Source: Confluentibacter flavum (lineage in GTDB: Bacteria > Bacteroidota > Bacteroidia > Flavobacteriales > Flavobacteriaceae). Taken from it: a DNA stretch of 41,790 bases. The number at the start of each line of letters is the position of its first letter. Position 1 is the stretch's first letter. A program made the translations under genes and the position numbers. The stretch is taken from NCBI RefSeq assembly GCF_002843175.1, contig NZ_PJEO01000030.1, positions 1 through 41,790 of the forward strand, given 5' to 3'. The notes beneath the pieces were generated by a model. That model made no database searches, was not told where the DNA came from, and saw only the letters and a program-made list of their open reading frames with translations. Below, in pieces: positions 16,427 to 41,790 of this stretch.

Positions 16427-18076
16427 ATGCGCAAGGAATTTATACCAAAATTGTTTTCTCTTTTAAAACAAGGAATATCTAGAGAAATTTTGACAAAAGA
16501 TATGCTCTCGGGATTAATCGTGGGCATCGTAGCTTTACCATTGGCCATCGCTTTTGCTATTGCTTCTGGTGTGTCTCCTGAAAAAGGCATCTTAACGGCA
16601 ATTATCGCAGGAATTATTATTTCGACTTTTGGTGGAAGTCGGGTTCAAATTGGAGGGCCAACAGGAGCCTTCATTGTAATTATTTATGGTATTGTTCAAC
16701 AATACGGGACAGACGGCTTAACCATCGCAACGTTTATGGCTGGGTTTATCATCATTGGATTTGGATTGATGAGGCTTGGAAATTTACTGAAATACATCCC
16801 ATATTCTCTCATTGTGGGCTTTACAAGTGGCATTGCACTCATTATTTTCTCCTCTCAAATTAATGATTTTTTTGGACTCCATATAGCTAAAGTTCCTGCT
16901 AATTTTATTGATAAATGGTCAGTATATTTTGATAATTTACACAACATTAATTGGTTTGCCATTGGTATTGCCTTTGCAACTGTATTGATTACCCTTTACT
17001 TTCAAAAAATAATAAGGAAAATTCCAGGGTCAATTATAGCCATTGTACTTGCAACGATAGTGGTTCAAGTTTTTGAAATTCCGGTAGATACTATTGAAAG
17101 TAATTTTGGTGATATTCCCAACAAGATAGGTTTGCCCAGTATTCCCAATGTAAGTTTCGATACCATTCAAGCCCTTATTCAACCAGCATTTGCAATTGCT
17201 ATATTGGGTAGCATAGAGTCACTTCTTTCTGCTGTAGTTTCAGATTCCATGATTGGAGGAAAACACCGTTCAAATATGGAATTAGTAGCGCAAGGAGCAG
17301 CAAACATAATGTCGTCTCTTTTTGGTGGCATCCCGGCTACAGGAGCTATTGCAAGAACGGCGACCAATGTTAAAAATGGGGGGCGAACACCTATTGCCGG
17401 CATCGTTCACGCTATTGTATTATTGACTATAATGCTCTTATTTGCACCCTATGCGAAATTAATACCTATGTCCTGTCTTGCAGGTATTTTAATGGTGGTC
17501 GCCTATCATATGAGTGAATGGAAACAATTTAGATCTATTTTAAAAGGGAATAGAATGGATATTATTATTTTGCTTACTACGTTCTTTCTTACTGTTATTT
17601 TTGACCTGGTTATTGCCATAGAAATTGGTATAGTGCTTTCGAGCTTTATTTTTATGAAACGAATGAGTGAATCTGTTAATATCCAGGATTTTTCATCTGA
17701 AAATGAAAATACCGAGCATCTTTTTGATGAAGAACAATTGGATATACCTGAAGGCGTTATTTTATATGAAATTAATGGACCACTATTTTTTGGTGCGGCA
17801 AGACAATTTCAGGAAACCATTACCAATACTCATTTTCAACCTAAGGTTATTATTATTAGAATGCGCTATGTGCCATTAATCGATGCGACTGGTTATCAGA
17901 GCATCAAAGAAATAATAAAAACCTATAAGTCTAGAAAAATTAAAGTAATAATTTCAGGTGTTAAAACATCCTTGAGGAAAGATTTTGAAAAAAACGAGTT
18001 GTTTTTATTTATTGAAAGTGATCTTGTTGTCGAAGAAATTCAAACAGCCATAAAACGGGCCAAAGAAAGTTTGTAG
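16427..18076 (+). CDS. SulP-family anion transporter with STAS domain
   Basis: A 549-aa inner-membrane transporter of the SulP/SLC26 family. The opening MLSGLIVGIVALPLAIAFAIASGVSPEKG is the conserved first helix pair, and IGGPTGAFIVIIYGIV follows. About 12-14 hydrophobic segments fill residues 20-425, and a cytoplasmic STAS domain fills about 440-545 (GVILYEINGPLFFGAARQFQ, then IDATGYQSIKE at the regulatory loop). SulP proteins move sulphate, bicarbonate or dicarboxylates; the substrate cannot be read from the sequence. The DUF983 gene precedes it. It is only distantly like the second SulP gene on the minus strand nearby, so they are not a recent duplication. Confidence 0.9.
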   Translation: MRKEFIPKLFSLLKQGISREILTKDMLSGLIVGIVALPLAIAFAIASGVSPEKGILTAIIAGIIISTFGGSRVQIGGPTGAFIVIIYGIVQQYGTDGLTIATFMAGFIIIGFGLMRLGNLLKYIPYSLIVGFTSGIALIIFSSQINDFFGLHIAKVPANFIDKWSVYFDNLHNINWFAIGIAFATVLITLYFQKIIRKIPGSIIAIVLATIVVQVFEIPVDTIESNFGDIPNKIGLPSIPNVSFDTIQALIQPAFAIAILGSIESLLSAVVSDSMIGGKHRSNMELVAQGAANIMSSLFGGIPATGAIARTATNVKNGGRTPIAGIVHAIVLLTIMLLFAPYAKLIPMSCLAGILMVVAYHMSEWKQFRSILKGNRMDIIILLTTFFLTVIFDLVIAIEIGIVLSSFIFMKRMSESVNIQDFSSENENTEHLFDEEQLDIPEGVILYEINGPLFFGAARQFQETITNTHFQPKVIIIRMRYVPLIDATGYQSIKEIIKTYKSRKIKVIISGVKTSLRKDFEKNELFLFIESDLVVEEIQTAIKRAKESL

Positions 18077-18677: not shown

Positions 18678-20174
18678 CTATTCTACTACATTAACGTTAA
18701 TCATTTTATCGGCTTTAATTAATAATTTATGACTGGAACTTGATAAATTAGTAACATATAACTTTTTTCCAACTGAGTGGTAACGTTCGGTAAGCTTATT
18801 AACCGCCTCAATGGCAGACATATCTACTATACGACTTTCTTTAAAATCAATTACAACTTCTTCGGGATCGTTCTGTACATCAAACTTTTCATTAAATAGT
18901 TGAATAGATCCAAAAAACAATGGTCCATAAATTTCATAATGCTTTACACCTTTCTCGTCAACGCGTTTTCTGGCACGAATGCGTTTGGCGTTACCCCAAG
19001 CATATACTAGCGCAGATACTATAACACCTATTAAAACAGCAAGCGCAAGGTTATGCATAAATACCGTAACAAGAATTACAATATTCATTACAATGATATC
19101 AGAAACAGGATATTTGTTTAAAATTTTCACACTAATCCATTCAAAAGTACCAATAGCAACCATGATCATTAGTCCTGTTAATGCTGCCATGGGTACTTGT
19201 TCAATAATTCCTGCGCCAAACATAATAAAAACTAGTAAGGCTACAGAAGCCACAACACCCGACAGTCTTGCACGCGCACCATTGGAAATATTAATTAAAC
19301 TTTGCCCCAACATAGCACAGCCACCCATACCTGAAAAGAACCCTGAGGTAATATTGGCAATGCCTTGAGCCGCGGCTTCTTTATTGGTACGCCCCCTTGT
19401 TTCCGTAATTTCATCTATCAGTTCTAAGGTTAATAAACTTTCTATTAAACCAACACCTGCCACAATAGCAGCATATGGAAAAATAAGCGTTAAGGTTTCT
19501 AATGTAAAGGGCACTTGAGGGATATGAAATGGCGGGAAACCACCTTGTATGGATGCAATATCGCCCACGGTTTTGGTATCAATTCCTAAAAAAGCTACAA
19601 TTCCAAAAACAACTAATATAGCAACCAATGATGCCGGAATTGCTTTGGTAAGTTTAGGCAAGCCCCAAATAATAACCATGGTAAGTAACACCAGTCCTAA
19701 AACAATAAACAATGCATTACCTGTTAACCAGCTTCCTGAGGCATCTTTAAACTGGTCTAATTGGGACATGAATATAATGATAGCCAGGCCATTAACAAAC
19801 CCGTAAACCACGGGCAATGGTACTAAACGCATTAATTTCCCTAGTTTTAAGACACCGGCAAGTAATTGTATAATACCCGCAAGCACGACGGTAGCAAAGA
19901 CATATTCCACACCATGGCTTTGGGCTAAAGCTATAATAACAACTGCAATAGCACCAGTGGCACCTGAAATCATGCCAGGCCTCCCTCCAAAAATAGAGGT
20001 GACTAAGCCCATAACAAAGGCAGCATACAAGCCAACCAATGGCGATAAGCCTGCTATAAGGGCAAAGGCAACGGCCTCTGGCACCAAGGCAAAAGCAACA
20101 GTTAAACCCGAAAGGACTTCAGTTTTGAAATTAACTTTTTGTGAGAAATCAAATAATCTTAAATATGGTTTCAT
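18678..20174 (-). CDS. SulP-family anion transporter with STAS domain (second copy)
   Basis: A 498-aa SulP transporter. The conserved start VLSGLTVAFALVPEAVAFALIAGLSPLVGLYAAF, then GRPGMISGATGAIAVVIIAL and GMGGCAMLGQSLINI, are typical of the bacterial subgroup that includes the cyanobacterial bicarbonate carrier BicA. The C-terminal STAS domain (about 395-498) has IYGPLFFGSIQLF and RIVDMSAIEAV. Substrate is unproven: sulphate and bicarbonate are both plausible. It is the first gene of a two-gene unit with the DksA-like gene. A strong promoter lies about 170 bases upstream (20343-20373), leaving a long leader with a tiny ORF. Confidence 0.9.
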   Translation of the reverse strand: MKPYLRLFDFSQKVNFKTEVLSGLTVAFALVPEAVAFALIAGLSPLVGLYAAFVMGLVTSIFGGRPGMISGATGAIAVVIIALAQSHGVEYVFATVVLAGIIQLLAGVLKLGKLMRLVPLPVVYGFVNGLAIIIFMSQLDQFKDASGSWLTGNALFIVLGLVLLTMVIIWGLPKLTKAIPASLVAILVVFGIVAFLGIDTKTVGDIASIQGGFPPFHIPQVPFTLETLTLIFPYAAIVAGVGLIESLLTLELIDEITETRGRTNKEAAAQGIANITSGFFSGMGGCAMLGQSLINISNGARARLSGVVASVALLVFIMFGAGIIEQVPMAALTGLMIMVAIGTFEWISVKILNKYPVSDIIVMNIVILVTVFMHNLALAVLIGVIVSALVYAWGNAKRIRARKRVDEKGVKHYEIYGPLFFGSIQLFNEKFDVQNDPEEVVIDFKESRIVDMSAIEAVNKLTERYHSVGKKLYVTNLSSSSHKLLIKADKMINVNVVE

Positions 20175-20795: not shown

Positions 20796-22274
20796 CTAGT
20801 TATTTAAACCTGGATTCACTAAAGTTTCACTTGCAGGTAAAGGCATATAGTACTTAATTTCTCCTAAAGGTTGTAAATCGTCAGGATGTTTATTTGCATT
20901 TACACTCTCAACCATTTCTAGCCTGGTTAAATCAAACCACCTACAATATTCTCCTGCAAATTCCCATGCTTTTTCTTGAACAATTTGTTCTTGCGTTAAC
21001 GACGTATAATCTACACTGGGTGCTGGAGTGTTTAAGGGGAGGCCATAAGCTCTTCTAACAATTTTATTAACAGCTTCAAGTGCATCAGGATCCGAAGAAT
21101 TTCCTGTTGCCATTACTTGCGCTTCGGCATAATTAAAATAAACTTCTGCCATGCGCTCTAAGGGCAGAGATAGTGCATTTCTCCAAGTAAGTCTGTCTCC
21201 TTGCAGCTTTTCAAAATACGGCCTTCCAGTATTAAATTGCTCCCAAGGGGTGCCATCTGGCAATTCGGTTTGAAAAGTTATATCTTTTCTCAGTTGGTCG
21301 GGAAAATTATTAAAAAATGCAATCTCCGAGAAGTAATCATCCCAGCCACCTAAATCACCTGGTCTGGCTGCATTACCATAGGCAGCATTTGAATTACGAG
21401 TAATGAGAGCAGTAAAATTTAATGCGAAAACTTCTTCTTTATTGCCATCATTATTAATTGTTGGCGAAGGCCATAAATCGATAAAGTTATCCATGAGTCC
21501 AAAACCATATTCATCTTCGTTATCAATCAATTCTTTAGCAACACTTGCAGCCATGGCATATTTTGAGTTGTCCTTCAAAGGCCATCCCGCCATTTGTAAA
21601 TAGACTTCTGCCAAAATAGCTTTAGCGGTACCTTGCCCAGCTCTGCCAGGGGCTGGTTTCTTTTTTTGCATTAAACCTATTGCTAGTTCCAAATCAGAGA
21701 TGATTTGTGCATAAAGGTCCTCTGTCGAGCTAGATGACATTGTTAAATTTTCTGGATCATATACATGTGAATTTAAAAGTATAGGTGCTTTACCCCATAG
21801 ACGGACGATCCAAAAATAATTATATGCTCTTAAAAAATAGGCTTCACCAGCTATTTGATTAATAACATCTTCATTACCGGTAGCGTTTTGGTAATTAGCA
21901 ATAATATTATTTGATCCTTGAATAGATTTATAAGCACCACTCCAAATAAATGGTAGTCTCCCATTTTGCTGAGATACATTGAATTGATCAAACTCCCTAA
22001 AATCAGCTTTATTACTGGCTTTGTGAGTTGTTAAATCATCACCACCCATTAAAATAGCTTGTGTTGCAGCGGTTTCAAGGCCACTATTCCACGTTTGTGT
22101 TAATGGGGAGTAAGTACCAACCAATGCAGCTGTCAAGCCACTTTCATTTGCTAAGGCATCACCGTCTGGTGTTAATTGTGCGGATAAGTCTTCCTCTAAA
22201 AATTCACTACAGGAAAATATTGTAAAAACTAAGCATACTAAAAGTGTTAGTTTTGTTTGAATTATATTTTTCAT
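20796..22274 (-). CDS. SusD/RagB-family outer-membrane lipoprotein
   Basis: A 492-aa substrate-binding lipoprotein. The signal peptide ends in a lipobox (TIFSC, acylated C22) followed by SEFLEEDL, so it is exported to the outer membrane. The body shows SusD features: helical TPR-like segments, QIAGEAYFLRAYNYFWIVRLWG, KAILAEVYLQMAGWP, and the C-terminal EKAWEFAGEYCRWFDLTRLE. It would cap the SusC channel at the cell surface. It follows susC after 11 bases. No glycoside hydrolase, lyase, sulphatase or protease gene is next to it, so the substrate (glycan, peptide or other) is unknown. Confidence 0.93.
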   Translation of the reverse strand: MKNIIQTKLTLLVCLVFTIFSCSEFLEEDLSAQLTPDGDALANESGLTAALVGTYSPLTQTWNSGLETAATQAILMGGDDLTTHKASNKADFREFDQFNVSQQNGRLPFIWSGAYKSIQGSNNIIANYQNATGNEDVINQIAGEAYFLRAYNYFWIVRLWGKAPILLNSHVYDPENLTMSSSSTEDLYAQIISDLELAIGLMQKKKPAPGRAGQGTAKAILAEVYLQMAGWPLKDNSKYAMAASVAKELIDNEDEYGFGLMDNFIDLWPSPTINNDGNKEEVFALNFTALITRNSNAAYGNAARPGDLGGWDDYFSEIAFFNNFPDQLRKDITFQTELPDGTPWEQFNTGRPYFEKLQGDRLTWRNALSLPLERMAEVYFNYAEAQVMATGNSSDPDALEAVNKIVRRAYGLPLNTPAPSVDYTSLTQEQIVQEKAWEFAGEYCRWFDLTRLEMVESVNANKHPDDLQPLGEIKYYMPLPASETLVNPGLNN

Positions 22275-22285
22275 ATTATTTTATT

Positions 22286-25200
22286 TTAAAAGTTAAGATT
22301 TATACCAATAGTCCAAGTTGTTGAGTTTGGATATGAGCCACCGTCACCACCACTGGAATCACCAAGACCATTGTTTGAAAAGGATTCAGGGTCTAGTCCT
22401 TTATAATTAGTCCAGGTTATTAAATTAGTTCCACTAACCAAAACTTGCATACCGAGACCACCGAGTTTTTCTTTAGGAATATTGTAGGCAACACTTAAGT
22501 TTTTCAGTCTAACAAAGTTGCCACTTTCTATAAACCTAGAAGATTGTATTTCTTCTAAACTCGTTGGACTAAAATGCGGAATATTACTATCTTCATTGGT
22601 GCCAGCTACCCAGCGATCCAAAATGTCAACATGAACGGCTTCACGAGCATCTACATTGGGCATAATACCTGTCGCATAGGCCAAATTCCATTTATCATAG
22701 CCTGTCATGGCATTAAAGAAGATATTGACGGTAAAGTTTTTGTAAGATATGATATTGTTCAAGCCATAAGTTGCTGTAGGCATCCCTTGGCCAATAATCA
22801 TATAATCATCTCCATTGATTGCAAAATCACCATTTAAATCTGCATATCTTGAATCGCCGGGCACATTACCATATTGAGCCGCTTCAGCAGCTTGGTTGGT
22901 TTTCCAAGTCCCTAAATAATTAAGCCCCCAATAAGATGATAACGAACGGCCCGGCGTAAGAATATTTTCAGGAAGGTTTGTTAATCCTGCACCCACGTTA
23001 CCGGAAAGGAAAATTTCATCTAAATCACCAAGATTTGCTATTTCATTGTTTAAGAAAGTAGCATTGAAGGTAGCATCCCATTTAAAATTGGCATTGTCAA
23101 TAATAGCAGCATTAATACCTATTTCGAAACCATTATTATCTACTTGCCCTACGTTTTTTGTGATAATGCCACCGCCTACATATAAGGGTAGCGGATTGTT
23201 AAGTAACAAGTCTTTAGTGGATTTCTCATAATAATCTAGGCTTATTCCCATTCTATTATTAAAAAACTGCATGTCAACACCAAAATTGATTTGGTCAGTT
23301 GTTTCCCATTTAAGGTCTGAATTTCCAGGATTACCCAATACGATACCAGGCAATAGGGTGTTGCCGTCAAACGAAGCAGCTGCACTATTATTATCAGTCG
23401 CTAGTGTTGTAACTGTTCCAAAAGGACCTATGGCTTGACTCCCTGTTTTACCCCAGCTAGCACGTAATTTAAGTTCATCAAAAAAACTGTTTTGCATAAA
23501 ATTTTCTTCAGTAACTCTCCATCCTAAAGCAATTGAAGGGAAGGTACTATATCTATTATTACCTCTGAATTTTGAAGAGCCATCAGATCTGACTGATGCT
23601 GTTAATAAATATTTATCCATAAACTCGTAATTAATCCTTCCAATGTAAGAAAGTAAGGTTTCCTTTCTTTTTATAGCGGATGAAGTAGTGGCTTCTACTA
23701 ATGTTAAATTATCATATCTAAAAATAGGATAAAGCAAATTAGTAGCATCGGTGCTAAAACCGTCAACTTTTCTTGTTTGATTTTCAAATACTCCAGTCAC
23801 CGTTAGGTTATGTACATCATTAAATGTTTTTTTATAAGTTAGGTTATTGGTGTTTTGTAAGAACAAGTTTTCTATTGAACCACGTGATGCCGACGGAGTA
23901 TTGTTTTGAAGTTGAAGGGAGAAGTTTTTGTTTTGTGTATTTGAGTAACTCAAACCATAGCCAACGTTTAAGGTAAGTCCTTCAAAAAACTCATAGTTAA
24001 GAGATCCATTAGTGGTTAGTGTGTTTACTTCTTGGATATTATCATTATATGCAGATTCTAGTGGATTTGCCTTAATAGAAGAGATGGGATCTAATATGGT
24101 GAATTGACCGTTTTCATCTCTTGCGGGTGTGGTGGGAGCCCATGTTAGTGGTCCTGCAAGTGCACCACTGGTATTACCACTCCCATTTACATTATTGGTT
24201 TCCCTTCTATTAAAGTTCATTTTAATGTCAGCCGTAAGTTTATCTGTTAAATCGGCTTTAATATTCGTACGTAAACCAAACCTTGTAAAGTCTGAGTTTA
24301 CTACAATCCCAGTTTGGTTTAAATAATTACCAGAAACAAAATAGGAGACATTATCCGATCCACCAGAATAGTCCAATTGGTATTCTTGACCGTAGCCGGT
24401 TCTAAATAACTCGTCTTGCCAATCCGTTCCGCCATTAATTCTGAATTGGTCTATTTCGCTTTGGGTAAATCTAGCGGATTGGCTAAAATTTGCAGCTCTT
24501 TGGTTTACAACTTCCGCAAATGTGGCGGCATCCATTAAATCCCATTCATTTATAGTGTTGGATATTGACCCCCTTACTGTAAAAGATATTCTTGGTTTGC
24601 CTGTTCGTCCAGATTTAGTTGTTATTAAAACAACACCGTTGGATCCTCTACTACCGTAAATTGCAGTAGAAGAGGCATCTTTCAAAACTTGCATAGATTC
24701 AATATCGGCTGGATTAACATCTCGAAAATCGGCTCCAACAAAGCCATCAATAACATATAAAGGCTCATTACTGCCGTTGATTGAATTAGCCCCACGTATT
24801 CTGATAGATACTGTTCCACCTGGTGCTCCCGAAGAATTTGTTACGTTAACCCCAGGGGTTCTTCCTTGTAGGATTTGATCCACACGCGTAACAGGTTGGT
24901 CTTTATAGTCTTCTGTTTTTACAATGGATATGGCACCAGTTAAATCTTTTTTAGACTGTACACCGTAACCCACTATAACAACTTCATCTAAGCCAGAGGT
25001 GTCTTCTTCTAGTATAATATTCATTGTAGTTCGTCCGTTTAAAGGGACTTCTTTTGAAATATAACCAATGTAGGATATTACTAAAACAGCATTACCGTCT
25101 TCAACATTAATGGAAAAATTACCATCAAAATCGGCTGTAGTACCATTTCTTGTTCCCTTTTCAATGATATTGGCACCTAGTAAGGGTTGGTCGTTAGCAT

Positions 25201-25648
25201 CGGTAATCTTTCCACTAACTATTATTTGGGGTTCTGCTTCTATTTCTTGTGTTTGTAAAGAATTGACCAGCAAATTATTATCAATTTCCTTGCCTTTTAA
25301 CAAAATTTTACGGTCATCTATTTCATAAGAAATTTTTAAAGTATCAAAAAGAGTTTCTATAACGTTTTGTATTGAAGCCTTTTTTACCCTAATAGAAACT
25401 TTTTTGTTCAAATTGACTGTTTTGGTTGTAAATAAAAACTTGAATTCGGTACTTAACTCTATATCGTCAATAATTTCCTTAAGCGTAGCCTCAGTTTTGT
25501 CTATTGAGATTTTAGTTTTTTGTGCATAACTTGAATTTGCTTGCATAGCAAAGCTTAGTGTCATAAACAAAAGTAGGGATATTCTCATTTTTAGTGCATA
25601 GTTTAAACGCCAAGGGAGAAAAACCCTTGATTTCTGTTTTTTTTTCAT
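22286..25648 (-). CDS. SusC/RagA TonB-dependent transporter with STN signalling domain
   Basis: A 1120-aa outer-membrane receptor. In order: extended signal peptide (cleavage near residue 42, SSYAQ), an STN/secretin-like signalling domain (about 47-115), a carboxypeptidase-regulatory-like beta domain (about 142-225, DFDGNFSINV and LVISYIGY), a TonB-box-like EVVIVGYGVQ, a plug (about 235-350, with RGANSINGSNEPLYVIDG and GSRGSNGVVLITTK), and the 22-strand barrel ending WTIGINLNF. The STN domain is what FecR-type anti-sigma factors contact, and fecR lies directly upstream, so this is a signal-transducing receptor. A hairpin and a possible antisense promoter lie in its leader, and no housekeeping-type sense promoter is visible there, which fits ECF control or readthrough from fecR. 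Confidence 0.95.
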   Translation of the reverse strand: MKKKQKSRVFLPWRLNYALKMRISLLLFMTLSFAMQANSSYAQKTKISIDKTEATLKEIIDDIELSTEFKFLFTTKTVNLNKKVSIRVKKASIQNVIETLFDTLKISYEIDDRKILLKGKEIDNNLLVNSLQTQEIEAEPQIIVSGKITDANDQPLLGANIIEKGTRNGTTADFDGNFSINVEDGNAVLVISYIGYISKEVPLNGRTTMNIILEEDTSGLDEVVIVGYGVQSKKDLTGAISIVKTEDYKDQPVTRVDQILQGRTPGVNVTNSSGAPGGTVSIRIRGANSINGSNEPLYVIDGFVGADFRDVNPADIESMQVLKDASSTAIYGSRGSNGVVLITTKSGRTGKPRISFTVRGSISNTINEWDLMDAATFAEVVNQRAANFSQSARFTQSEIDQFRINGGTDWQDELFRTGYGQEYQLDYSGGSDNVSYFVSGNYLNQTGIVVNSDFTRFGLRTNIKADLTDKLTADIKMNFNRRETNNVNGSGNTSGALAGPLTWAPTTPARDENGQFTILDPISSIKANPLESAYNDNIQEVNTLTTNGSLNYEFFEGLTLNVGYGLSYSNTQNKNFSLQLQNNTPSASRGSIENLFLQNTNNLTYKKTFNDVHNLTVTGVFENQTRKVDGFSTDATNLLYPIFRYDNLTLVEATTSSAIKRKETLLSYIGRINYEFMDKYLLTASVRSDGSSKFRGNNRYSTFPSIALGWRVTEENFMQNSFFDELKLRASWGKTGSQAIGPFGTVTTLATDNNSAAASFDGNTLLPGIVLGNPGNSDLKWETTDQINFGVDMQFFNNRMGISLDYYEKSTKDLLLNNPLPLYVGGGIITKNVGQVDNNGFEIGINAAIIDNANFKWDATFNATFLNNEIANLGDLDEIFLSGNVGAGLTNLPENILTPGRSLSSYWGLNYLGTWKTNQAAEAAQYGNVPGDSRYADLNGDFAINGDDYMIIGQGMPTATYGLNNIISYKNFTVNIFFNAMTGYDKWNLAYATGIMPNVDAREAVHVDILDRWVAGTNEDSNIPHFSPTSLEEIQSSRFIESGNFVRLKNLSVAYNIPKEKLGGLGMQVLVSGTNLITWTNYKGLDPESFSNNGLGDSSGGDGGSYPNSTTWTIGINLNF

Positions 25649-25655
25649 AATTTTG
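25627..25655 (+). promoter_or_regulatory. Candidate antisense promoter over the susC start codon
   Basis: On the plus strand, TTG at 25627-25629, 18 bases, then TAATTTTG at 25648-25655 (matches TAnnTTTG). It overlaps the susC start codon and points toward fecR. The start site would be near 25661. Confidence 0.45.
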
Positions 25656-25660
25656 AATGT

Positions 25661-25734
25661 TTATTAGTTGGTTATTCACTTGTAATAATCACCTTTCAAC
25701 TCGGAAAATGTAGCAGCATTTTCCGATTTTTTTT
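25661..25734 (+). ncRNA. Candidate short RNA antisense to the susC leader
   Basis: A promoter-like sequence ending at 25655 and a strong intrinsic terminator ending at 25734, both on the plus strand, would define an RNA of about 74 bases complementary to the susC 5' leader. Both flanking genes (fecR and susC) are on the minus strand, so a plus-strand terminator here has no coding gene to serve. In Bacteroides, DonS-type cis-antisense RNAs repress susC homologues in loci run by an ECF sigma/anti-sigma pair, the same context as here. Existence and effect are inferred; the exact 5' end is a guess. Confidence 0.5.
25701..25734 (+). terminator. Strong plus-strand intrinsic terminator in the fecR-susC gap
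   Basis: A perfect ten-base-pair stem, TCGGAAAATG (25701-25710) and CATTTTCCGA (25717-25726), with a TAGCAG loop and eight Ts after it. The T-run is only on the plus-strand side, so it ends plus-strand transcripts. In susC mRNA the same hairpin would form in the leader. Confidence 0.75.
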
Positions 25735-25793
25735 ATTATAAAGTGATTCTTCCTTTTATTTAATTTTATTTTTTATTCATTGGCAATTGATTT

Positions 25794-26948
25794 TTAGTTA
25801 ATGACTATTTTATTTTCTACGATTATATATTCTATTTGATATACCTTGTTAAAATAATTTAGCACTTGTTCTATAGTTTCACGTTTCGTTTCTATGGTAG
25901 CATTAAAGGTTTCCTTAGCTAAATTTTTATTATTATTGATGATGATAACATTGTATGCTCTTTCTAACTTTTGGGTAATATTATCAAAAGTGGTATTTCT
26001 GAATACGAGATTACCATTCATCCAAGATGTATAGAGGCTTGTATTGACCTTTGAGTCAATTATATTTTTATTGTTTTTGTTGAAAGAGCCTTTAAATCCG
26101 GGGGTTAAAAAAAACTCATCTTTTTGAACAGAGTTTGTTAGGCTTACAGAACCTTCAACTAGAACAACATCTGTATCGGTGTCTTCTGGATAATTGGAAA
26201 CATTAAATGTTGTTCCGTAAACTTGAATATCAAGCTCTTGCGAGTTTACTACAAATGGTTGATTTTTATTATGTGTCACGTCAAAATAAGCTTCCCCTGT
26301 TAACGACACCCATCTGGTGGAATCTTTTAAAAACTTTACAGGGAAGGTTAGAGAACTGCCAGAGTTTAAGTGAACTTTAGATCCATCTGATAGTACAATA
26401 TTGAATTGTTTTCCGTTGGGAATATGAAGTGTATTGTAAGTTAATTTTGTTTCATGATTATCTTGGTTGTAAATAAGTTGATCTCCCGATTTTTTACCAA
26501 CTACCTCACCATTTGAGTTTAAAACTTCAGAATCTCCGTTTTCATCAATTACCTCAATATTTCCGTTTCCTAGATCAAGCGTTATAACGTCGGTTTTAGG
26601 TGTGATTTTTTGGCTAGAGGACGTTTTTTTAAAACTAATTTGCAACATAAACCCTATGCTTAAAAAAAATATAGCCACAGCAGCATATTTAACAATGGAT
26701 AATCTATTTCTATACAACGGATTCTTTTCTTTTCTAATCTCTTTTATTAGCTGTTTCTTAATATTTTCTAGATTGGGATCGTTCATGACTAAATTGATTG
26801 CAAAATTGGTTTTAACAAATTCTTTAAAAATATTTTGGTTTTCTTTTATTGAAATCCAGTCGTTCAGTAAATCTAAGTCTTCTATAGCTGCCGATTGGCA
26901 GAAATATTTTATAATACAATTTTCGACTTCTTTTGGGATCATTTTCAA
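25794..26948 (-). CDS. FecR-family anti-sigma factor
   Basis: A 384-aa inner-membrane protein. The N-terminal cytoplasmic part (1-85) should bind the sigma factor, one membrane helix follows (about 87-105, IVKYAAVAIFFLSIGFMLQI), then the periplasmic FecR domain (about 165-285, with LHIPNGKQFNIVLSDGSKVH and LTGEAYFDVTHNKNQPFVV) and a C-terminal DUF4974 domain (about 315-384) that contacts the STN domain of the receptor. It lies 145 bases upstream of susC on the same strand. The ECF sigma gene is on the other side and points the opposite way, unlike the usual co-directional sigma-fecR-susC-susD order. Confidence 0.93.
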   Translation of the reverse strand: MKMIPKEVENCIIKYFCQSAAIEDLDLLNDWISIKENQNIFKEFVKTNFAINLVMNDPNLENIKKQLIKEIRKEKNPLYRNRLSIVKYAAVAIFFLSIGFMLQISFKKTSSSQKITPKTDVITLDLGNGNIEVIDENGDSEVLNSNGEVVGKKSGDQLIYNQDNHETKLTYNTLHIPNGKQFNIVLSDGSKVHLNSGSSLTFPVKFLKDSTRWVSLTGEAYFDVTHNKNQPFVVNSQELDIQVYGTTFNVSNYPEDTDTDVVLVEGSVSLTNSVQKDEFFLTPGFKGSFNKNNKNIIDSKVNTSLYTSWMNGNLVFRNTTFDNITQKLERAYNVIIINNNKNLAKETFNATIETKRETIEQVLNYFNKVYQIEYIIVENKIVIN

Positions 26949-27059: not shown

Positions 27060-27593
27060 ATGAATTTTAGTAATAATAGAATTTTAACAGAAAACCTTAT
27101 AGCGGGGGAGGAAAAAGCCTATATATTTCTCTTAAACAAATTTCACAGGCAGCTGAATGCCTATGCACTTACTTTGGTGCACGATCAAGCTTTGGCACAG
27201 GATATTGTTCAAAATGTATTTTTAAAAACTTGGAAGTCAAGAAAAAAATTGAATCCAGATTTTTCTATTCAAGGTTTCTTGTATAAGTGCGTGTATTATG
27301 AGTTTGTTAACACCTATCAAAAAAATAAAAAGACCATGCTTTTGCACCAACAATATATACACTCTGTACAAGAAGTAGTTAGTGGTTATGAGGAAAATGA
27401 AATTGACAAGTTAATAGAAATGCTAAATAGGGAAATAAAAAAACTACCACCTAAATGCCAGGCAATTTTTCTTCTGAGCAAGAAAGAAGGCCTTACAAAT
27501 TATGAAATAGCAGAATATTTAAATATATCTATCAAAACAGTAGAAGCTCAAATAACCAAGGCATTTGGTATTCTTAAAAGTAAGTTGAGTTAA
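27060..27593 (+). CDS. ECF RNA polymerase sigma factor (FecI-like)
   Basis: A 177-aa extracytoplasmic-function sigma factor with region 2 (about 10-85: VHDQALAQDIVQNVFLKTWKSRKKL) and region 4 (about 120-175: LPPKCQAIFLLSKKEGLTNYEIAEYLNISIKTVEAQITKAF). This form is typical of Bacteroidetes FecI-like factors that work with FecR. It is divergent from fecR across a 111-base gap, so the two are expressed separately. It probably directs transcription of susCD when the receptor signals. No consensus housekeeping promoter at a sensible distance was found for it; a TAATTTTG lies only three bases before the ATG, too close unless the start is further in. Confidence 0.93.
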   Translation: MNFSNNRILTENLIAGEEKAYIFLLNKFHRQLNAYALTLVHDQALAQDIVQNVFLKTWKSRKKLNPDFSIQGFLYKCVYYEFVNTYQKNKKTMLLHQQYIHSVQEVVSGYEENEIDKLIEMLNREIKKLPPKCQAIFLLSKKEGLTNYEIAEYLNISIKTVEAQITKAFGILKSKLS

Positions 27594-34036: not shown

Positions 34037-37000
34037 ATGAAAAAGCCTACCAATTTTAAATCAACGCTTGTTGTTTTAATTTTATTAACATGTTTTAATA
34101 GCATCATAGCCCAAACATACAAGCCGTTTACGGTAAGGGAAAAGGTTGATGTAAAGGGAAGTATGCTTGTAATAGGGAATAATATTCTAAGCGAGAGCAA
34201 CCAGCCTATTAATGATAACAGAGTTAATCAAGATATCAATATGCGGTATGTTGATATTGATGGTGATGCTTCTACTTTTAGTTCTAGTAGTGCAAATCTT
34301 TTATTATCAGATCATGAAGATGGGAGCGAGACAACATGCTATAGGGTGGCTTACGCAGGATTATACTGGAGTGCTATGCTTAAAAATGGAGAAGATAGAG
34401 CCAGTATAACTAACATAAAACTAAAAACACCAGGTAGTTTAACATATGTTAATATTGGTGGTGAACTTATCTACGACGCCGTAGTAAATCCCATTGTAGC
34501 ATATAATAATGAGCCTGGTAATACGCCTTATGCTTGTTATGCCGACATCACAAATATAGTATCTGGTTTATCTGATATTGAAGGAACTTATACGGTTGCT
34601 GATATTGTATCTAGCGAAGGGTTTAATAACTCTACAGGTTTAAGTGCGGGGTGGTCACTTATAGTTATTTATGAAGACCCAGAATTGCATACCAAATCAT
34701 TTACCCTATTTGATGGCTTTAGCCATCTTTTTAATGGGCAACAATTAATAATTCCTGTTACAGGCTTCAGAACACCGCCCGCAGGTAATATAGATTTACA
34801 GTTTGCTTATGGTGCTTTAGAAGGAGATAAAACTCAAAAGTCTAAGCTAGAAATTAATGGAAAAGAGGTGTTAACTCCATTAAGAAAACCAGCAAATAAT
34901 TTTTTCAGATCAATAATAGAAAACACTAACGGAGTTTCTCATCCAAGAAATCCAATGAGTGAAAATACACTAGGGTATGACACAGGGTTTTTAGAAATAA
35001 TAAAGGCAAATCCTTCTTATATAAATAATAATGTCACATCAGCCGATTTTCGTTTACAAGTACCACTAGGCCAAGCGGATCCTATTTTTGCTTTTTTTAG
35101 TGCATTTGCTGTTGATATTATTGCTCCTGATATCAATTTGACAAAAATTGTATTGGATGCAAACGGTAATAATATTGATGGAGATGATGTTAATTTAGGT
35201 CAAAATTTATTCTATGAAATAACCTATCAAAGTTTTGGTAATGATAATGTTACACAATTTACCATAAAAGATGTACTTCCTGATAATATTGTTTTTGATC
35301 CCGCAACAGATATTGATTTAAGCAATGCTGGCGGGGCAACATTGCAATCTTATGACCCTGTAACAAGAACGCTCATTTTTAATATTCCAGATGGTTCAGT
35401 AGAAGTTAATGATCCCAGTTTTGTAATACGTTTAGCAATACAGATTGTGCCTAATTGTTACGACTTGAGTCAGGCCTGTTCTAATGAAATTATGAATCAA
35501 GCCTTTGCAACATATAGAGGCGTAATTAATACGAATTGGATTCAGGAAGAAGGTAGTTTTGCCACCACCGAGTGTTTAGGTACACCAAGAGCTACCAACT
35601 TATTAGTGGATATTTCTAATTGTAATTTTGAAAGAACTGAAGTTTTGTGTGGTACCAGCATACTTTTAACAGCCTCTGATGGCTATGAAAGTTATTCCTG
35701 GTCTACAAGTCCAACAGGAACACCGGTCATAGGTACGGAACAAACATATACGGCTACAGAGCCAGGTTCGTATTATGTAACAAATACAGCTCCGGCCACT
35801 TGTTTGTCTATAGACGAACAAATAAATGTCATCACTTATGGTGCTGACGTAACCAACCCTGTTATTCCTTTTGCTGATGAAGTGGTTATTTGCCCGAATG
35901 ATGGAAAGGAATTGCCTAACATTTTCTTGTGTGGTGCAAACGATTCGAGGGTAATTAATACGGGCATTAGTGACGCTGTTTCTATTATATGGCAAAAACT
36001 GAATGAGGACAGCTGTGCTGCAGTCGCATTAGACAATTGTGCCAACGAAGATTCCGGCTGTACATGGAACCAAATTGCTACGGGACCAAATTATACGGCA
36101 AATGATTCAGGTCAATTTAGAATGTTTATTAATTATCCCGGCGGCTGTTTCAATGTTTTTTATTTCAATGTTTACCAAAACCTATTAAATCCCACCATTA
36201 ATGCTAAAGATATTTTATGTACTACTCTTGGAGAAGTAACTGTAGGTGGGGTGCCAAGTGGCTACGAATACAGTATCGACGGAACCAATTATCAATCTAG
36301 TAATGTGTTTTCTGTCAGTACCCCTGGATATTATACCGTTTATATAAGACAGATTGGAGTAAATACAAATCCTTGTATTTTCCAAACACCTAGTATATAT
36401 GTTAGGGCAAGGGATTTTACGGTGTCAACAGTTGTAACACAACCTTTTTGCTATGGAGAAAAAGGAAGTATTATGATAGCTGCTAACAATGCGCTTCCTC
36501 AATATTATTATAGTATTTATTTAGGAGGCACTTTGGTTAACAGTGCAGGACCCGTTATGGCAAGCGATTATACATTTGCCAACTTAAACCCAGGAACTTA
36601 TACGGTGAACGTCTCTACTGATGATGGCTGTACATATTCGGAAGATATTGAGATAATAGAACCACCATTGTTGACGGCTACGGCGGCATTGACCCAGCCA
36701 TTAACCTGCACAGATGGTGAGATTACAGTGTATCCAAACGGCGGAACGGCGCCCTATATCTATTATGTGAATGGAGCAGCAGATTCCCAGGATTCACCTT
36801 TAATACCTGTAACCGCATCAGGGGTGTATAATATTACGGTTGTAGATTCCAACAATTGTTCTGCGGAAACTTCAATAACTGTTGATGCCATACCAGCACC
36901 AGATTTTAATGTAACTAGTACGGATATTGATTGTTCGGATTCTGGTGATACGGGTACCATAAGCATCAATGTTACGAATGCAAACGGAAATAGTTTGCTG

Positions 37001-40000
37001 TACAGCATAGATAATGGTGTTACGTTCTTTAGTTCTCCTATTTTTACCGGACTGGCTACAGGTAATTATGATGTGGTTGTTCAATATACTATAGGAACAG
37101 ACGTGTGTGTTACTAATCCAGAAACCATAACCATTACAGAACCGCCAGCAATTACCGGAACAGCGACATTAACAACTCCTTATACGTGTATTACCAACGG
37201 TGTTATAACAGTTTCTGGTGTTTCTGGTGGAACAGCACCATACACCTATAGTTTAGATGGTATTAATTACCAATCGGGCACAACATTTAGTGGATTGATA
37301 AATGGCACCTTTACGGTTACTATTATGGATGCTAGAGGCTGTACATTTGCTACAGCTCCAGTGACCATAGATCCATTAGACCCCCCAATAAACATGTCGT
37401 TTAGTAATTCACCATTAAGCTGTCCATCCAACACAACGGATGTTACCATAACAAGTGTTACGGGAGGTACGGGAGCGTTGGAATACCAAATAATAGCCCC
37501 ATCGGCATCGGCTACAGCATACCAAGCATCAAACATTTTTACAGGATTGGTATCTGGTACTTATACCTTTCAAGTGCGGGATGCCAATAACTGTACCTAT
37601 TCGGAAACCTACAGTATTGCGCCATTACCGGTAATTAATGTTGTGGGTCAAACCATAAGTGATGTTTCTTGTTTTGGTGCATCTGATGGATCTGCCAGAT
37701 TTACAGTTTCTGGCACTACAAACTTTACATATACTATCAATGGTGGGGCTTCTATAGCTGGAACATCTCCTATTGATTTAACAGGGTTGTCAGCTGGAAG
37801 TCATTCCATATTGGTAACCGATGCAACAACTAATTGTACGGCCACAGCTTTGGTAACAATAAACGCACCAACTACAGTACTAAGTGCCACATCAAGTACG
37901 TCACCAATTACATGTAATGCTGATGGTAGTGTGGTTATTAGTGCTTCTGGTGGCTGGGATGGTTATACATATCAACTTTTGCAACCTGATAGTATAGTTA
38001 TAGGGCCTCAAGGCAGTAATATTTTTGCGGGCTTATCTCAAATAGGTATCTATACCGCTACGGTTATTGATGCAAAAGGATGTGAAACCACAACAACATT
38101 TACATTAAATGCTCCAAGCACACCAACGGCAACTATAGATCCAGCATCCGATTTATGTTATAGTGGAAGTGGCGCTACAATTATAGTAAATGCTTCAGAT
38201 GGACAATCACCTTATGAATATAGCATCAATGGAAGCGCGTTTGGTTCTAACAATACATTTACCAATTTAATTCCAGGTAATTTCGATATAACCGTAAGGG
38301 ATGCTTACGGATGTACATTTAATATACCTACCCAAACCATCGCCGATCAATTAACGGCAACCGCTGTTTTAACAAAAGGGTTGGATTGTACAGTTACGCC
38401 CGATGCAGAAGTTGATATTACAATATCGGGAGGTACGGCGCCTTTCACTTACGAAGTATCATTTAACGGTGGAGCGTTTTCATCTATTGCAGCTCCAACT
38501 TACACATACAATGACACCCAAGTAGGCAATTACCAATATAGAATTACGGATGCTCTCGGATGTACTACCTTAACCAATGTTGTTACAATCCAGCCCATTA
38601 CAAACCCTTCGGCCACAGCAAGCGTAATAGATGTATTTTGTAGCAGCGACAGTAGTGGCGTTGTAACTATAGATGTTGACGAAACCGTTGGAGCACCTCC
38701 TTACCAAATAAGCTTTAATGGATCTGCATTTACTTCCCAAACCGTTTATAGTGGCTTGTCTGCGGGTTCTTATAATTATACAGTAAGAGATGCTAACGCC
38801 TGCGAATTTAATGGGTTTGCTATGGTTAACGAGCCTAGTGCTGTTGCTTTAGGTTCTGCGGTTATAATACCAATTACATGTAGTGGCTCAGGAAATGTTT
38901 TAGGCGCCATAACTATTTCGGGTGTTGCCGGTGGTACAGGCAATTATACTTATACTTTATTGGATAGTTCCGGAAATCTTGCCACAACATCGTCTACAAA
39001 TCCAGTAGGGCCAACAGCAAGTACAAGTGTTATGTTTAACGGTTTAGCTTTTGGAAACTATTATTTAAGACTGGTTGATGCCAATGGTTGTGAATACAAT
39101 TTTGGACCTTATCAAGTAGCTTCAAATGTTGATGCGCTCAATATTGATGTGGATGCTTCCTCTGCTAGTTGTGTAACAGGGGTTGACTATAATATAGAAA
39201 TCGTAAATGGTGTTGGTCCTTTTAGGGTTAGAATTTACGATGGAACAACAACTTTTAACCCCGTAGATGGGGTTGCTCCCAACGGACTGCCTACATCGGA
39301 TGTTTCACCAAACGAAAGAAACCATCAATTTTCTGGGTTACAATTTGGGGTGAGCTATGTTTTTGAAGTATTGGATACAAGTACAGGCTGTACCTATATT
39401 GAACAAGTCCCCGCAGAGCCTAGTCCATCCCCAATGGCTTTATCTGGTACTGCGAATAGCGTAGCCTGTTTGGGGGACACCAATGGCACTTTTGATTTTA
39501 CCATATCAGGCTATACAGGAGACGCTTTGTCTTGGGAGGTTTACAATAACTTATCTAATACTACAACAGGAATAACAGGCAGTGCAGCAGGATTGTCAGG
39601 TGCAGATTACAGTGACACAGTGATAGGTATAGAACCAGGTGATTATTATCTGTTGGTTACCGAAACAGATACTGGTTCAACACAATGTACTGCATTTATC
39701 AATTTCAGGATTACTGAACCTACAGAGCTATTACTGGCCGAAGTGGTTAACACCAATGCAAACTGTAACCAAGATGCGCAAGTTGTTGTGAATGGTAGTG
39801 GAGGAGTATCTCCTTATGAATATGCTTTTGTTCAGGATGGAACAGTGCCTTCTGCTGGGGACTGGACAACAAACAACCTAGCGATTTTAGACCATACTGT
39901 AAATACCAATTGGGATGTGTACCTACGTGATTCAAATGGATGTGCCATAGCAATCCCTTTAGATGTTATAATTGCTGCAGACCCATTACCTTCTGTAACC

Positions 40001-41790
40001 TTACCACCATTTGCAGATGATCAATGTTCTTCTGGTGGTAATTCATATACATTTACAGCAACTCCTGGAGGAAGCGAAATAGCGCCGGTTAGTTATAGTA
40101 TTGATGGTGTTAATTTCCTGTCTAATCCAACATTTACGGTTTCCACAAGCGGAACCTATACATTGACTATTAGGGATGGTAATGGCTGTACAGCAACAGA
40201 TACTATTACAACTTATCAACCGCTTCTGGTAAATGCAGTTGTAAGTGCGCAACCTTCATGTACAGTGGGGGGTACTATTACAGCTACAGGTAATGGAGGT
40301 AGTGGCAATTATAGCTTTGCTCTTTTAGATAGTCTTGGAAATCCAACAATCTATACCATTTCTGGGTCTGACTTCACAGGAGTTCCAGCGGGTAACTACA
40401 TTGTGGAAATTACAGACGCCGTTACAAGTTGTTCTTCACAATCACCAATCAGTCTAGAAACGCCAACACCGGTAACATTCTCAACTTCTGCAAATGATGT
40501 GAGTTGTAATGGAGGTAGTGATGGTGTAATTATAGTAACCTTAGATGCAGGTAACAATAACCCGCCTTATACCTATAGTATTTCGGGACCAGTTTCAGTT
40601 GGGCCGCAATATTCAAATATTTTTACGGGGTTACCAGCGGGAATTTATGATGTTACGGTAACCTCAAGCAGGGATTGTAGTTTAACACAACAGGAAACAA
40701 TTGGTGAACCTACACCTTTAAGTGTTTCAGGAACAGCAACCGATTTTGCATGTGCACCTAATAATTCCGTAAATACATCCTCTCTTACCATTTCAGTAGT
40801 AGGAGGAACGGCTCCTTATGTATATAGTATTGATGGAACCAATTATTTATCTACCAATACGTTTGATATTATAGATACTGGTAGTCCCCAAACAATAAAT
40901 ATCTTTGTAAAAGACACTAATGGCTGTATCGCTTCTAATACAGTTTCAATTACACCGTTACCTGTATTAACGGCAGCATCAGCGGCTATTGTAACACCTA
41001 TTGATTGTAACAATACGGGTACTGTTGCTATAACGGTATCAGGAGGTTCTGGTGATTTTAATTACCAAATGTTACCAGAGGGAGCCATTCAAACGTCGAA
41101 TACATTTAGTATTGTTAATCCAGGAGATTATTATTTTAGAGTGTACGACAATATTACGGACTGTTATATTGACACTTCGGCATTTACAGTTACACCATTT
41201 GATACAATTGACGTGTTGGTTACGCCAATTTCAGATATTACCTGTTTTGGAGATGTAGACGGCGCATTCGAGATCAATGTCAGTGGCTATTCGGGGACCT
41301 ATGATTATGAAATATTCGATAGCACCAATACACTTATAAGAACCGTTAATGGTGCCAATACATCTACAAACCCACAGTTAGTTACCGGGCTTCCCGCAGG
41401 AAGCTATACGGTGGTCGTTACGGAAACTGCCAGTCCGTTCTGTAGCACAACATCAAACATCGTTACCATAGCAACGCCGGCAACGGCCTTGGATGTGGCC
41501 GTTTCAGAAACATCCAATGTCACATGTGATGATGGGCAGGGAACAATCACGGCAATTGCCAGTGGCGGTTGGGGATCTTATGAATATGAACTGACTGGAG
41601 CTGCCACGGTAGCGTATTCCCCAAATGGAACGTTCAGGAACCTGTCGGCAGGATCATACACCGTTAATGTAAGGGACTCGGGAGGATGTACCGTATCCGG
41701 GGCCATTACGCTTACAGTTCCAACACCTATATCGGCAACGGTAACTGCCGATACAACATTATTGTCCTGTTTTGGGGATACCAGCGCCAC
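34037..41790 (+). CDS. Giant SprB-like gliding adhesin (3' end outside window)
   Basis: The frame from the ATG at 34037 stays open to the last base: 2584 residues without a stop. It starts with a signal peptide (STLVVLILLTCFNSIIAQ). An N-terminal domain (about 40-340) has the AGLYWSAMLKNGE and GWSLIVIYEDPELHTKSFTLFDGF segments of SprB-type proteins, a DUF11-like domain follows (about 360-490), then an Ig-like region with cysteines. From about residue 720 come SprB repeats: 22 whole units and one cut by the window edge, each about 80 residues with an opening Cys (for example VSCFGASDGS) and a closing GxYxVTVxDxxGC. SprB is a filament moved along the cell surface by the gliding motor and exported by T9SS. 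The expected type B C-terminal signal lies outside. The PorP/SprF fusion 75 bases upstream is the likely partner. Confidence 0.9.
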   Translation, partial: MKKPTNFKSTLVVLILLTCFNSIIAQTYKPFTVREKVDVKGSMLVIGNNILSESNQPINDNRVNQDINMRYVDIDGDASTFSSSSANLLLSDHEDGSETTCYRVAYAGLYWSAMLKNGEDRASITNIKLKTPGSLTYVNIGGELIYDAVVNPIVAYNNEPGNTPYACYADITNIVSGLSDIEGTYTVADIVSSEGFNNSTGLSAGWSLIVIYEDPELHTKSFTLFDGFSHLFNGQQLIIPVTGFRTPPAGNIDLQFAYGALEGDKTQKSKLEINGKEVLTPLRKPANNFFRSIIENTNGVSHPRNPMSENTLGYDTGFLEIIKANPSYINNNVTSADFRLQVPLGQADPIFAFFSAFAVDIIAPDINLTKIVLDANGNNIDGDDVNLGQNLFYEITYQSFGNDNVTQFTIKDVLPDNIVFDPATDIDLSNAGGATLQSYDPVTRTLIFNIPDGSVEVNDPSFVIRLAIQIVPNCYDLSQACSNEIMNQAFATYRGVINTNWIQEEGSFATTECLGTPRATNLLVDISNCNFERTEVLCGTSILLTASDGYESYSWSTSPTGTPVIGTEQTYTATEPGSYYVTNTAPATCLSIDEQINVITYGADVTNPVIPFADEVVICPNDGKELPNIFLCGANDSRVINTGISDAVSIIWQKLNEDSCAAVALDNCANEDSGCTWNQIATGPNYTANDSGQFRMFINYPGGCFNVFYFNVYQNLLNPTINAKDILCTTLGEVTVGGVPSGYEYSIDGTNYQSSNVFSVSTPGYYTVYIRQIGVNTNPCIFQTPSIYVRARDFTVSTVVTQPFCYGEKGSIMIAANNALPQYYYSIYLGGTLVNSAGPVMASDYTFANLNPGTYTVNVSTDDGCTYSEDIEIIEPPLLTATAALTQPLTCTDGEITVYPNGGTAPYIYYVNGAADSQDSPLIPVTASGVYNITVVDSNNCSAETSITVDAIPAPDFNVTSTDIDCSDSGDTGTISINVTNANGNSLLYSIDNGVTFFSSPIFTGLATGNYDVVVQYTIGTDVCVTNPETITITEPPAITGTATLTTPYTCITNGVITVSGVSGGTAPYTYSLDGINYQSGTTFSGLINGTFTVTIMDARGCTFATAPVTIDPLDPPINMSFSNSPLSCPSNTTDVTITSVTGGTGALEYQIIAPSASATAYQASNIFTGLVSGTYTFQVRDANNCTYSETYSIAPLPVINVVGQTISDVSCFGASDGSARFTVSGTTNFTYTINGGASIAGTSPIDLTGLSAGSHSILVTDATTNCTATALVTINAPTTVLSATSSTSPITCNADGSVVISASGGWDGYTYQLLQPDSIVIGPQGSNIFAGLSQIGIYTATVIDAKGCETTTTFTLNAPSTPTATIDPASDLCYSGSGATIIVNASDGQSPYEYSINGSAFGSNNTFTNLIPGNFDITVRDAYGCTFNIPTQTIADQLTATAVLTKGLDCTVTPDAEVDITISGGTAPFTYEVSFNGGAFSSIAAPTYTYNDTQVGNYQYRITDALGCTTLTNVVTIQPITNPSATASVIDVFCSSDSSGVVTIDVDETVGAPPYQISFNGSAFTSQTVYSGLSAGSYNYTVRDANACEFNGFAMVNEPSAVALGSAVIIPITCSGSGNVLGAITISGVAGGTGNYTYTLLDSSGNLATTSSTNPVGPTASTSVMFNGLAFGNYYLRLVDANGCEYNFGPYQVASNVDALNIDVDASSASCVTGVDYNIEIVNGVGPFRVRIYDGTTTFNPVDGVAPNGLPTSDVSPNERNHQFSGLQFGVSYVFEVLDTSTGCTYIEQVPAEPSPSPMALSGTANSVACLGDTNGTFDFTISGYTGDALSWEVYNNLSNTTTGITGSAAGLSGADYSDTVIGIEPGDYYLLVTETDTGSTQCTAFINFRITEPTELLLAEVVNTNANCNQDAQVVVNGSGGVSPYEYAFVQDGTVPSAGDWTTNNLAILDHTVNTNWDVYLRDSNGCAIAIPLDVIIAADPLPSVTLPPFADDQCSSGGNSYTFTATPGGSEIAPVSYSIDGVNFLSNPTFTVSTSGTYTLTIRDGNGCTATDTITTYQPLLVNAVVSAQPSCTVGGTITATGNGGSGNYSFALLDSLGNPTIYTISGSDFTGVPAGNYIVEITDAVTSCSSQSPISLETPTPVTFSTSANDVSCNGGSDGVIIVTLDAGNNNPPYTYSISGPVSVGPQYSNIFTGLPAGIYDVTVTSSRDCSLTQQETIGEPTPLSVSGTATDFACAPNNSVNTSSLTISVVGGTAPYVYSIDGTNYLSTNTFDIIDTGSPQTINIFVKDTNGCIASNTVSITPLPVLTAASAAIVTPIDCNNTGTVAITVSGGSGDFNYQMLPEGAIQTSNTFSIVNPGDYYFRVYDNITDCYIDTSAFTVTPFDTIDVLVTPISDITCFGDVDGAFEINVSGYSGTYDYEIFDSTNTLIRTVNGANTSTNPQLVTGLPAGSYTVVVTETASPFCSTTSNIVTIATPATALDVAVSETSNVTCDDGQGTITAIASGGWGSYEYELTGAATVAYSPNGTFRNLSAGSYTVNVRDSGGCTVSGAITLTVPTPISATVTADTTLLSCFGDTSA
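36194..41790 (+). repeat. Array of SprB repeats (23 seen)
   Basis: About 80-codon units of the SprB repeat family. Unit starts show a Cys followed by Gly/Asp (LTCTDGEIT, VSCFGASDG, ITCNADGSV, VSCNGGSDG, ITCFGDVDG, LSCFGDTSA). Units differ strongly in sequence, so the array is old and not the product of recent slippage. Confidence 0.8.

Follow-up and report, generated by a model that had tools for sequence, protein, structure and literature searches.

A gene for a cis-antisense RNA is strongly supported, on the basis of sequence comparison, in the gap between fecR and susC of Confluentibacter flavum, and positions 25659-25734 (plus strand) of the window (the whole stretch of 41,790 nucleotides that was analyzed, contig NZ_PJEO01000030.1) most likely encode a flavobacterial RNA of the DonS type, about 76 nt long, that limits susC expression. 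The case for such a gene rests on terminator polarity, a promoter box, the spacing between the two, two hairpins, and changes of the G.U type, all of which are conserved across many genomes. Because many relatives show promoter, fold, and stop signal in the same position, the RNA is probably a built-in brake on susC. The antisense promoter box, the two-hairpin RNA, and the terminator appear to be kept by selection, as their conservation among relatives shows; from the same features we infer that the RNA is expressed and that it represses susC.

The fecR-susC Locus

Both fecR and susC are encoded on the minus strand and, as the first-pass annotation of this DNA had claimed, no plus-strand gene occupies the gap between them (zero plus-strand open reading frames of at least 80 aa). 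The locus includes an ECF sigma/anti-sigma pair, recognized by Pfam matches to a sigma factor and to FecR. The sigma factor gene is oriented divergently from fecR, which corrects an earlier description, and the pair presumably controls susC itself. It should be noted that the TTG taken as the start of fecR is merely the earliest start codon in that frame. The features of the locus are as follows.

20796-22274, minus strand: susD (Pfam SusD)
22286-25648, minus strand: susC, an STN-carrying SusC/RagA receptor (Pfam STN, CarbopepD_reg, and Plug) and the presumed target
25627-25629, plus strand: candidate -33 element TTG, spacer 18 (from sequence; weak across relatives)
25648-25655, plus strand: -7 box TAATTTTG (TAnnTTTG), overlapping the susC start codon (from sequence and conservation)
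25659-25734, plus strand: predicted cis-antisense RNA of about 74-76 nt, start uncertain by about 2 nt (from the box-to-start distance and the R1 model match)
25666-25694, plus strand: 5' hairpin of the antisense RNA (from fold and conservation)
25701-25726, plus strand: terminator hairpin of 10-11 pairs (from the terminator finder and covariation)
25727-25734, plus strand: T-run (T8) of the intrinsic terminator (from sequence and the side of the T-run in relatives)
25794-26948, minus strand: fecR anti-sigma factor, long type, about 384 aa (Pfam FecR and FecR_C)
27060-27593, plus strand: ECF-type sigma factor (Pfam sigma-70 regions 2 and 4)

Elsewhere in the window, two distinct SulP-STAS sulfate permease genes (16427-18076, plus strand, and 18678-20174, minus strand) are close neighbors of one another near susCD. 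A plus-strand frame at 34037-41788 (2584 aa or more) directly follows genes for PorP/SprF and CHU_C and is open at the contig end; at a guess, it encodes a very large surface protein, for example a SprB-like adhesin.

The Predicted RNA

The gap carries the plus-strand terminator that had been claimed for it: the arms TCGGAAAATG and CATTTTCCGA (25701-25710 with 25717-25726) form a perfect stem of ten Watson-Crick pairs that is followed by eight Ts at 25727-25734, and the terminator finder counts 11 pairs by including a T.G pair next to the loop. A total of seven terminator-like sites were found between 22 and 30 kb, an ordinary number when compared to shuffles (4.5, sd 1.9), and the site at 25701-25734 ranked first in the list with the most pairs (11). 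When positions 25661-25734 are folded as RNA, the energy is -18.7 kcal/mol (z -5.1), a value equaled by 0 of 200 shuffles. The covariance model R1 matches the window at 25661-25735 with 67.8 bits (E 4.8e-9), the window being one of its 67 training rows.

The RNA is predicted to start at approximately 25659 because the box-to-start distance was taken to be as in sigma-A promoters of Flavobacterium psychrophilum, where the available text of the report places the -7 box, TAnnTTTG, at -12 to -5 (PMC9723704). So defined, the RNA is encoded opposite and divergent to susC, at the susC 5' end, and its length of 74-76 nt, which follows from the box, the terminator, and a predicted start site, compares with 78-128 nt reported for the DonS type. 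The first-pass annotation had described an RNA of about 74 bases, fully complementary to the susC leader and transcribed from a promoter candidate, TTG-N18-TAATTTTG, some 45 bases before the hairpin. The position opposite the susC leader and the box over the susC start codon are upheld here; full complementarity presupposes a susC mRNA that spans the gap, and the TTG is weak in relatives. A peptide encoded within the RNA was rejected, as the ATG at 25707-25709 immediately meets a TAG. Rfam 15 returned 0 matches at gathering score across the whole window, and a lenient Rfam scan of 10 related loci returned only 1 match, to an unrelated family and under the cut-off of that family.

An Antisense Terminator Across the Family

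A FecR alignment search identified long-type FecR in 55 of the 149 genomes of the family. The set used for comparison comprises 130 distinct fecR-susC gaps from 46 genomes, two from the window's own genus; these are the window, 29 loci, 99 further places among the FecR matches listed (mostly better-scoring ones), and one locus (L225) that joined the set through a hairpin pattern match. Another locus (L070) was removed since it is the same locus as the window. A same-strand SusC follows FecR in 131 of 131 loci examined, the window being counted twice. The genome of the window also has a second long-type fecR, with equal-scoring FecR-domain matches at three places (L006, L007, and L008, on contigs C37 and C38). 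Two of these are followed by susC at identical gap coordinates, and L006 carries a long-loop antisense hairpin and a CAAATTTATG box.

When the gaps alone were scanned, with those shorter than 30 nt scored as lacking a hairpin, 76 of 130 gaps held an antisense perfect-stem terminator and 3 of 130 a sense one, while dinucleotide shuffles lead one to expect 1.2 and 0.2, respectively. An identical scan of 76 control codirectional gaps yielded 2 antisense and 4 sense terminators. With flanks included, a strict terminator finder recovered 85 antisense versus 4 sense terminators (130 gaps, 46 genomes) and a long-loop hairpin finder recovered 99 versus 2 in the 130 gaps; combined, the two finders place an antisense hairpin in 105 of 130 gaps and 41 of 46 genomes, related loci being non-independent samples. 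The remaining 25 gaps lack an antisense hairpin by either finder, and the box is present in 8 of these. The comparison among relatives that the first-pass annotation had proposed therefore finds a plus-strand-type terminator in 105 and a promoter box in 94 of the 130 gaps.

The hairpin lies at a narrow distance from the susC ATG (median 51, IQR 48-54, full range -56 to 108, which counts misplaced first ATGs) and at a wide distance from fecR (median 69, range 1 to 209). A strict hairpin pattern matched 19 distinct sites in 11 of the 149 genomes, 19 of 19 within fecR-susC gaps of the set; the window itself does not match this pattern. Long-loop antisense hairpins of a second class were observed at eight loci (L162, L164, L174, L187, L189, L191, L197, and L214), often shortly after the fecR stop codon, and this class seems to have a conserved sequence of its own.

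A Promoter Box Over the susC Start Codon

The antisense box TAnnTTT(G/A), which is [CT]AAANNTATG in the sense reading, lies over the susC start codon in the same phase. It was found at 94 of 130 fecR-susC starts versus 3 of 260 control starts, at 0 of 19 SusC without FecR, and at 0 of 27 receptors beside short FecR, the last being the receptor starts that were located in the 32 loci supplied. In 74 of 85 loci the box is situated 38-50 nt before the hairpin, a range at which its mirror image gave 13 matches, and it co-occurs with the hairpin (86 of 105 gaps with a hairpin versus 8 of 25 without; Fisher 2.7e-6). An exact -33 TTG, at spacers of 16-21, accompanies 23 of 94 boxed starts versus about 12 estimated from control starts; this signal is weak, the element not being conserved at one spacing, and a TTG at a fixed distance was rejected.

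Distribution of the RNA and Its Layout

In the window's own genome, R1 has one convincing match, the locus described here (67.8 bits); the next (33.7 bits) has no fecR or susC beside it. Searches of 13 genomes of the family at E 0.01 returned 75 matches, up to 12 per genome, of which 60 are antisense within fecR-susC gaps of the set. Of the remaining 15, 14 lie within 400 nt of an opposite-strand susC frame and 13 of those are accompanied by FecR; no FecR was found beside the exception (L437), which is separated from its susC frame by about 300 nt. In total, 74 of 75 matches lie at, or close to, a susC start in antisense orientation; many of the 60 gap matches are also in the training alignment, and the 15 others are not. 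Across 295 genomes of the class, searched at E 0.001 with stricter filters, nine matches were found in seven genomes, seven of them in fecR-susC gaps and two elsewhere; three of the seven gap matches are outside the window's family. At the strictness of the class scan, seven listed members of the window's own family lacked an R1 match. The sequence-conserved form of the RNA is patchily distributed.

The layout, scored as terminator and box, was also followed in three further sets. The class-wide set (59 gaps, 58 from other families and one from the window's own, 9 of 68 loci having been dropped) contains 22 antisense and 4 sense terminators and 18 boxes. Among named genomes (79 of 80 gaps kept, L363 dropped, order labels assigned from genus names), 50 gaps that are nearly all Flavobacteriales by name, and that include two unplaced 'Bacteroidia bacterium' MAGs, gave 28 antisense and 0 sense terminators and 37 boxes. 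The 29 other gaps, one from a 'Chlorobiota' MAG, gave 16 antisense, 1 sense, and 17 boxes, with both features present in Marinifilum, Butyricimonas, Bacteroides, Labilibaculum, and Ginsengibacter. Because DonS-type RNAs have been reported from Bacteroides, a Bacteroides MAG genome serves as a check: among the best 30 of its 69 FecR matches (29 of 30 kept, L468 dropped), 13 antisense and 1 sense terminators were found, with the box at 19 of 29. It should be noted that the scans of the named genomes and of the Bacteroides genome permitted loops one base longer than the family gap scans. This Bacteroides genome (G481, the genome of L380) has its 69 FecR matches in about 3.6 Mb. Judging from these sets, the layout recurs in other orders, less strongly.

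Selection on the Antisense Strand and Alternative Readings

The terminator stem is conserved as CGGGAAATG/CATTTTCCG in flavobacterial RNAs. Alignment A3, which holds 67 of 74 boxed RNAs (seven divergent ones were omitted by eye), has 99.3% of the cells of this stem paired, with 9 of 11 pairs changed on both sides and 61 double-change cells versus 10.5 in shuffles. Identity between genomes is 78% in the stem, 52% in the 5' part, and 47% in the loop, the least conserved element. A stem identity of 78% exceeds what pairing requires and is left unexplained by a simple antisense model. One tentative extension is that a single ancient, class-wide RNA gene occupies the fecR-susC gap, its promoter phase-locked to the susC start codon and its copies numbering a dozen or more in some genomes, and that the stem of the Flavobacteriaceae RNAs is read by a shared trans-acting partner, such that loci would be damped both jointly and singly.

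The RNA might instead act mainly in trans through its conserved stem, either by contacting several susC leaders or by way of a protein partner, with the cis position being only its origin. The identities just given would suit such a role, as would the presence of as many as 12 model matches in one genome and the undiversified loops of paralogues. Orthogonality of loops among paralogues was examined and is unsupported: a first pass found 0 identical loops in 104 within-genome pairs (P 0.14) and, with 14 loci added, 4 of 237 pairs were identical versus 5.6 expected (P 0.35). Action mainly in trans is nevertheless unlikely, given that the position is bound to the susC start nearly everywhere the RNA is found and that pairing in cis is perfect by construction.

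A second possibility is that the hairpin is an insulator that just stops stray antisense transcription from entering fecR, the short RNA itself being functionless. Terminator polarity and the position between susC and fecR fit this role, which has no need of a promoter box at a near-fixed distance, nor of a conserved 5' hairpin. That hairpin, GTGGTTAA ... TTAATCAC, was recovered under a strand-neutral rule at 52 of 74 loci versus 9.7 in shuffles, and its mismatches are 61 G.U and 0 A.C versus 6.6 and 1.7 in shuffles. Because the 5' hairpin is conserved, a mere insulator is disfavored and we consider it quite improbable.

The same DNA also folds as sense RNA, and the narrow distance from hairpin to ATG would likewise be expected if the hairpin, preceded by an A-run, were a regulatory structure of the susC mRNA leader. 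The two strands can be told apart by a strand-neutral search that admits both G.T and A.C and requires no T-run; this is the fair test because the 67 alignment rows came via a finder that permits G.U. Hairpins were found in 79 of 130 gaps, and their mismatches amount to 80 G.U and 1 A.C when read as antisense RNA, whereas the sense reading turns them into A.C. The G.U changes of the stem are spread over ten positions. With one vote per genome, 29 of 33 genomes show G.U and 1 shows A.C (P 2.4e-4 versus a shuffled baseline of 68% G.U, which was computed with a looser stem rule than the hairpin count and which is above half because the antisense strand is T-rich). Of the 79 hairpins, 73 have the T-run on the antisense side and none has it on the sense side. 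The antisense fold is also the more stable in 74 of 74 loci, by a mean of 9.4 kcal/mol, a comparison that is partly biased because the loci were chosen by the G.U-permitting finder.

In the fecR-susC gaps, the A-run was the only conserved sense motif found upstream of the hairpin, and a sense ECF promoter beside the hairpin was rejected on this ground; a proposed second role of the stem as an ECF -35 element was dropped because some stems, when read, lack GGAA. Since stem mismatches in both hairpins are of the G.U type in the antisense reading, selection acts on the antisense RNA and, by the same rule, a sense element is disfavored and highly unlikely. Outside the family set, the neutral G.U:A.C counts are 45:1 (named genomes), 22:4 (class-wide set), and 11:2 (Bacteroides genome), the last being not far from the baseline; the strand signal therefore weakens with distance. 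Scarcely credible is the view that CAAANNTATG, which overlaps the start codon, is a translation-start signal of these SusCs rather than a promoter and that the terminator has some other purpose, given that the box is missing from all 19 SusC without FecR, from all 27 receptors beside short FecR, and from 257 of the 260 control starts and that its occurrence tracks the antisense hairpin.

Proposed Mechanism

For a cis-antisense RNA that limits susC expression, the following sequence of events is proposed. A primary-sigma promoter, with its -7 box over the susC start codon, would direct synthesis of a two-hairpin RNA of ~76 nt that ends at the intrinsic terminator in the gap. While FecR keeps the ECF sigma factor inactive, this RNA would be transcribed through the primary sigma factor and would then pair with the stretch of the susC leader between about bases -12 and -87. 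Pairing, in turn, would block ribosome binding and/or trigger decay of the susC mRNA, and transcriptional interference may be an added effect. Expression of susCD would thus stay low up to the point at which the sigma factor increases transcription of the sense strand, with the RNA setting the threshold for induced sense transcription.

The first-pass annotation had suggested that the logic of DonS-type RNAs operates here and that pairing begins with a kissing contact between hairpin loops. The conserved antisense gene and the same layout in a Bacteroides genome agree with the former suggestion. The latter gains nothing from the comparison: the loop is the least conserved element (47% versus 78% for the stem), the loops of paralogues are not significantly diversified, and the proposal is without specific support because the two strands of any hairpin have complementary loops. 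A kissing contact is possible.

Relation to Known Systems and Significance

As described in the available portions of the respective sources, the DonS family of Bacteroides consists of cis-antisense RNAs of 78-128 nt that are divergent to susC homologues and have a negative effect on them (PMC7366714), B. thetaiotaomicron has 32 PUL-associated antisense RNAs (PMC10994844), and Bacteroides host-glycan PULs are typically governed by ECF sigma/anti-sigma pairs, in a 2025 paper that calls the mechanism of DonS repression unknown (PMC11697453). The RNA described here resembles these RNAs of Bacteroides fragilis and B. thetaiotaomicron in being short, divergent to a susC homologue, and part of an ECF/anti-sigma locus, and its layout rule matches a Bacteroides MAG genome too. 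It differs in being flavobacterial, in its predicted length of about 76 nt, and in the conserved terminator stem and 5' hairpin, which are known here from sequence alone. Antisense transcripts listed for F. psychrophilum are likewise flavobacterial and share the sigma-A -7 box TAnnTTTG, but none is tied to susC in the available text of that report, whose authors suggest their list as a possible starting point for studies like those in B. fragilis (PMC9723704). A literature search, which took in few subscription papers and parts of the sources, returned work on Bacteroides and one flavobacterial transcriptome, in which the structural family and its reach were not found described. PUL antisense RNAs being already known from gut Bacteroides, what appears new is the structural family and its taxonomic reach.

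With a promoter-RNA-terminator unit that recurs across the family and, more weakly, in several other orders, a list of transcripts becomes a candidate family of conserved genes, for which a covarying structure and a searchable model are available. The box, the stem, and the 5' hairpin offer clear mutational tests, and the sequence-conserved stem hints at a partner still to be found. As a probable brake on susC, the RNA bears on the choice of glycans by Bacteroidota.
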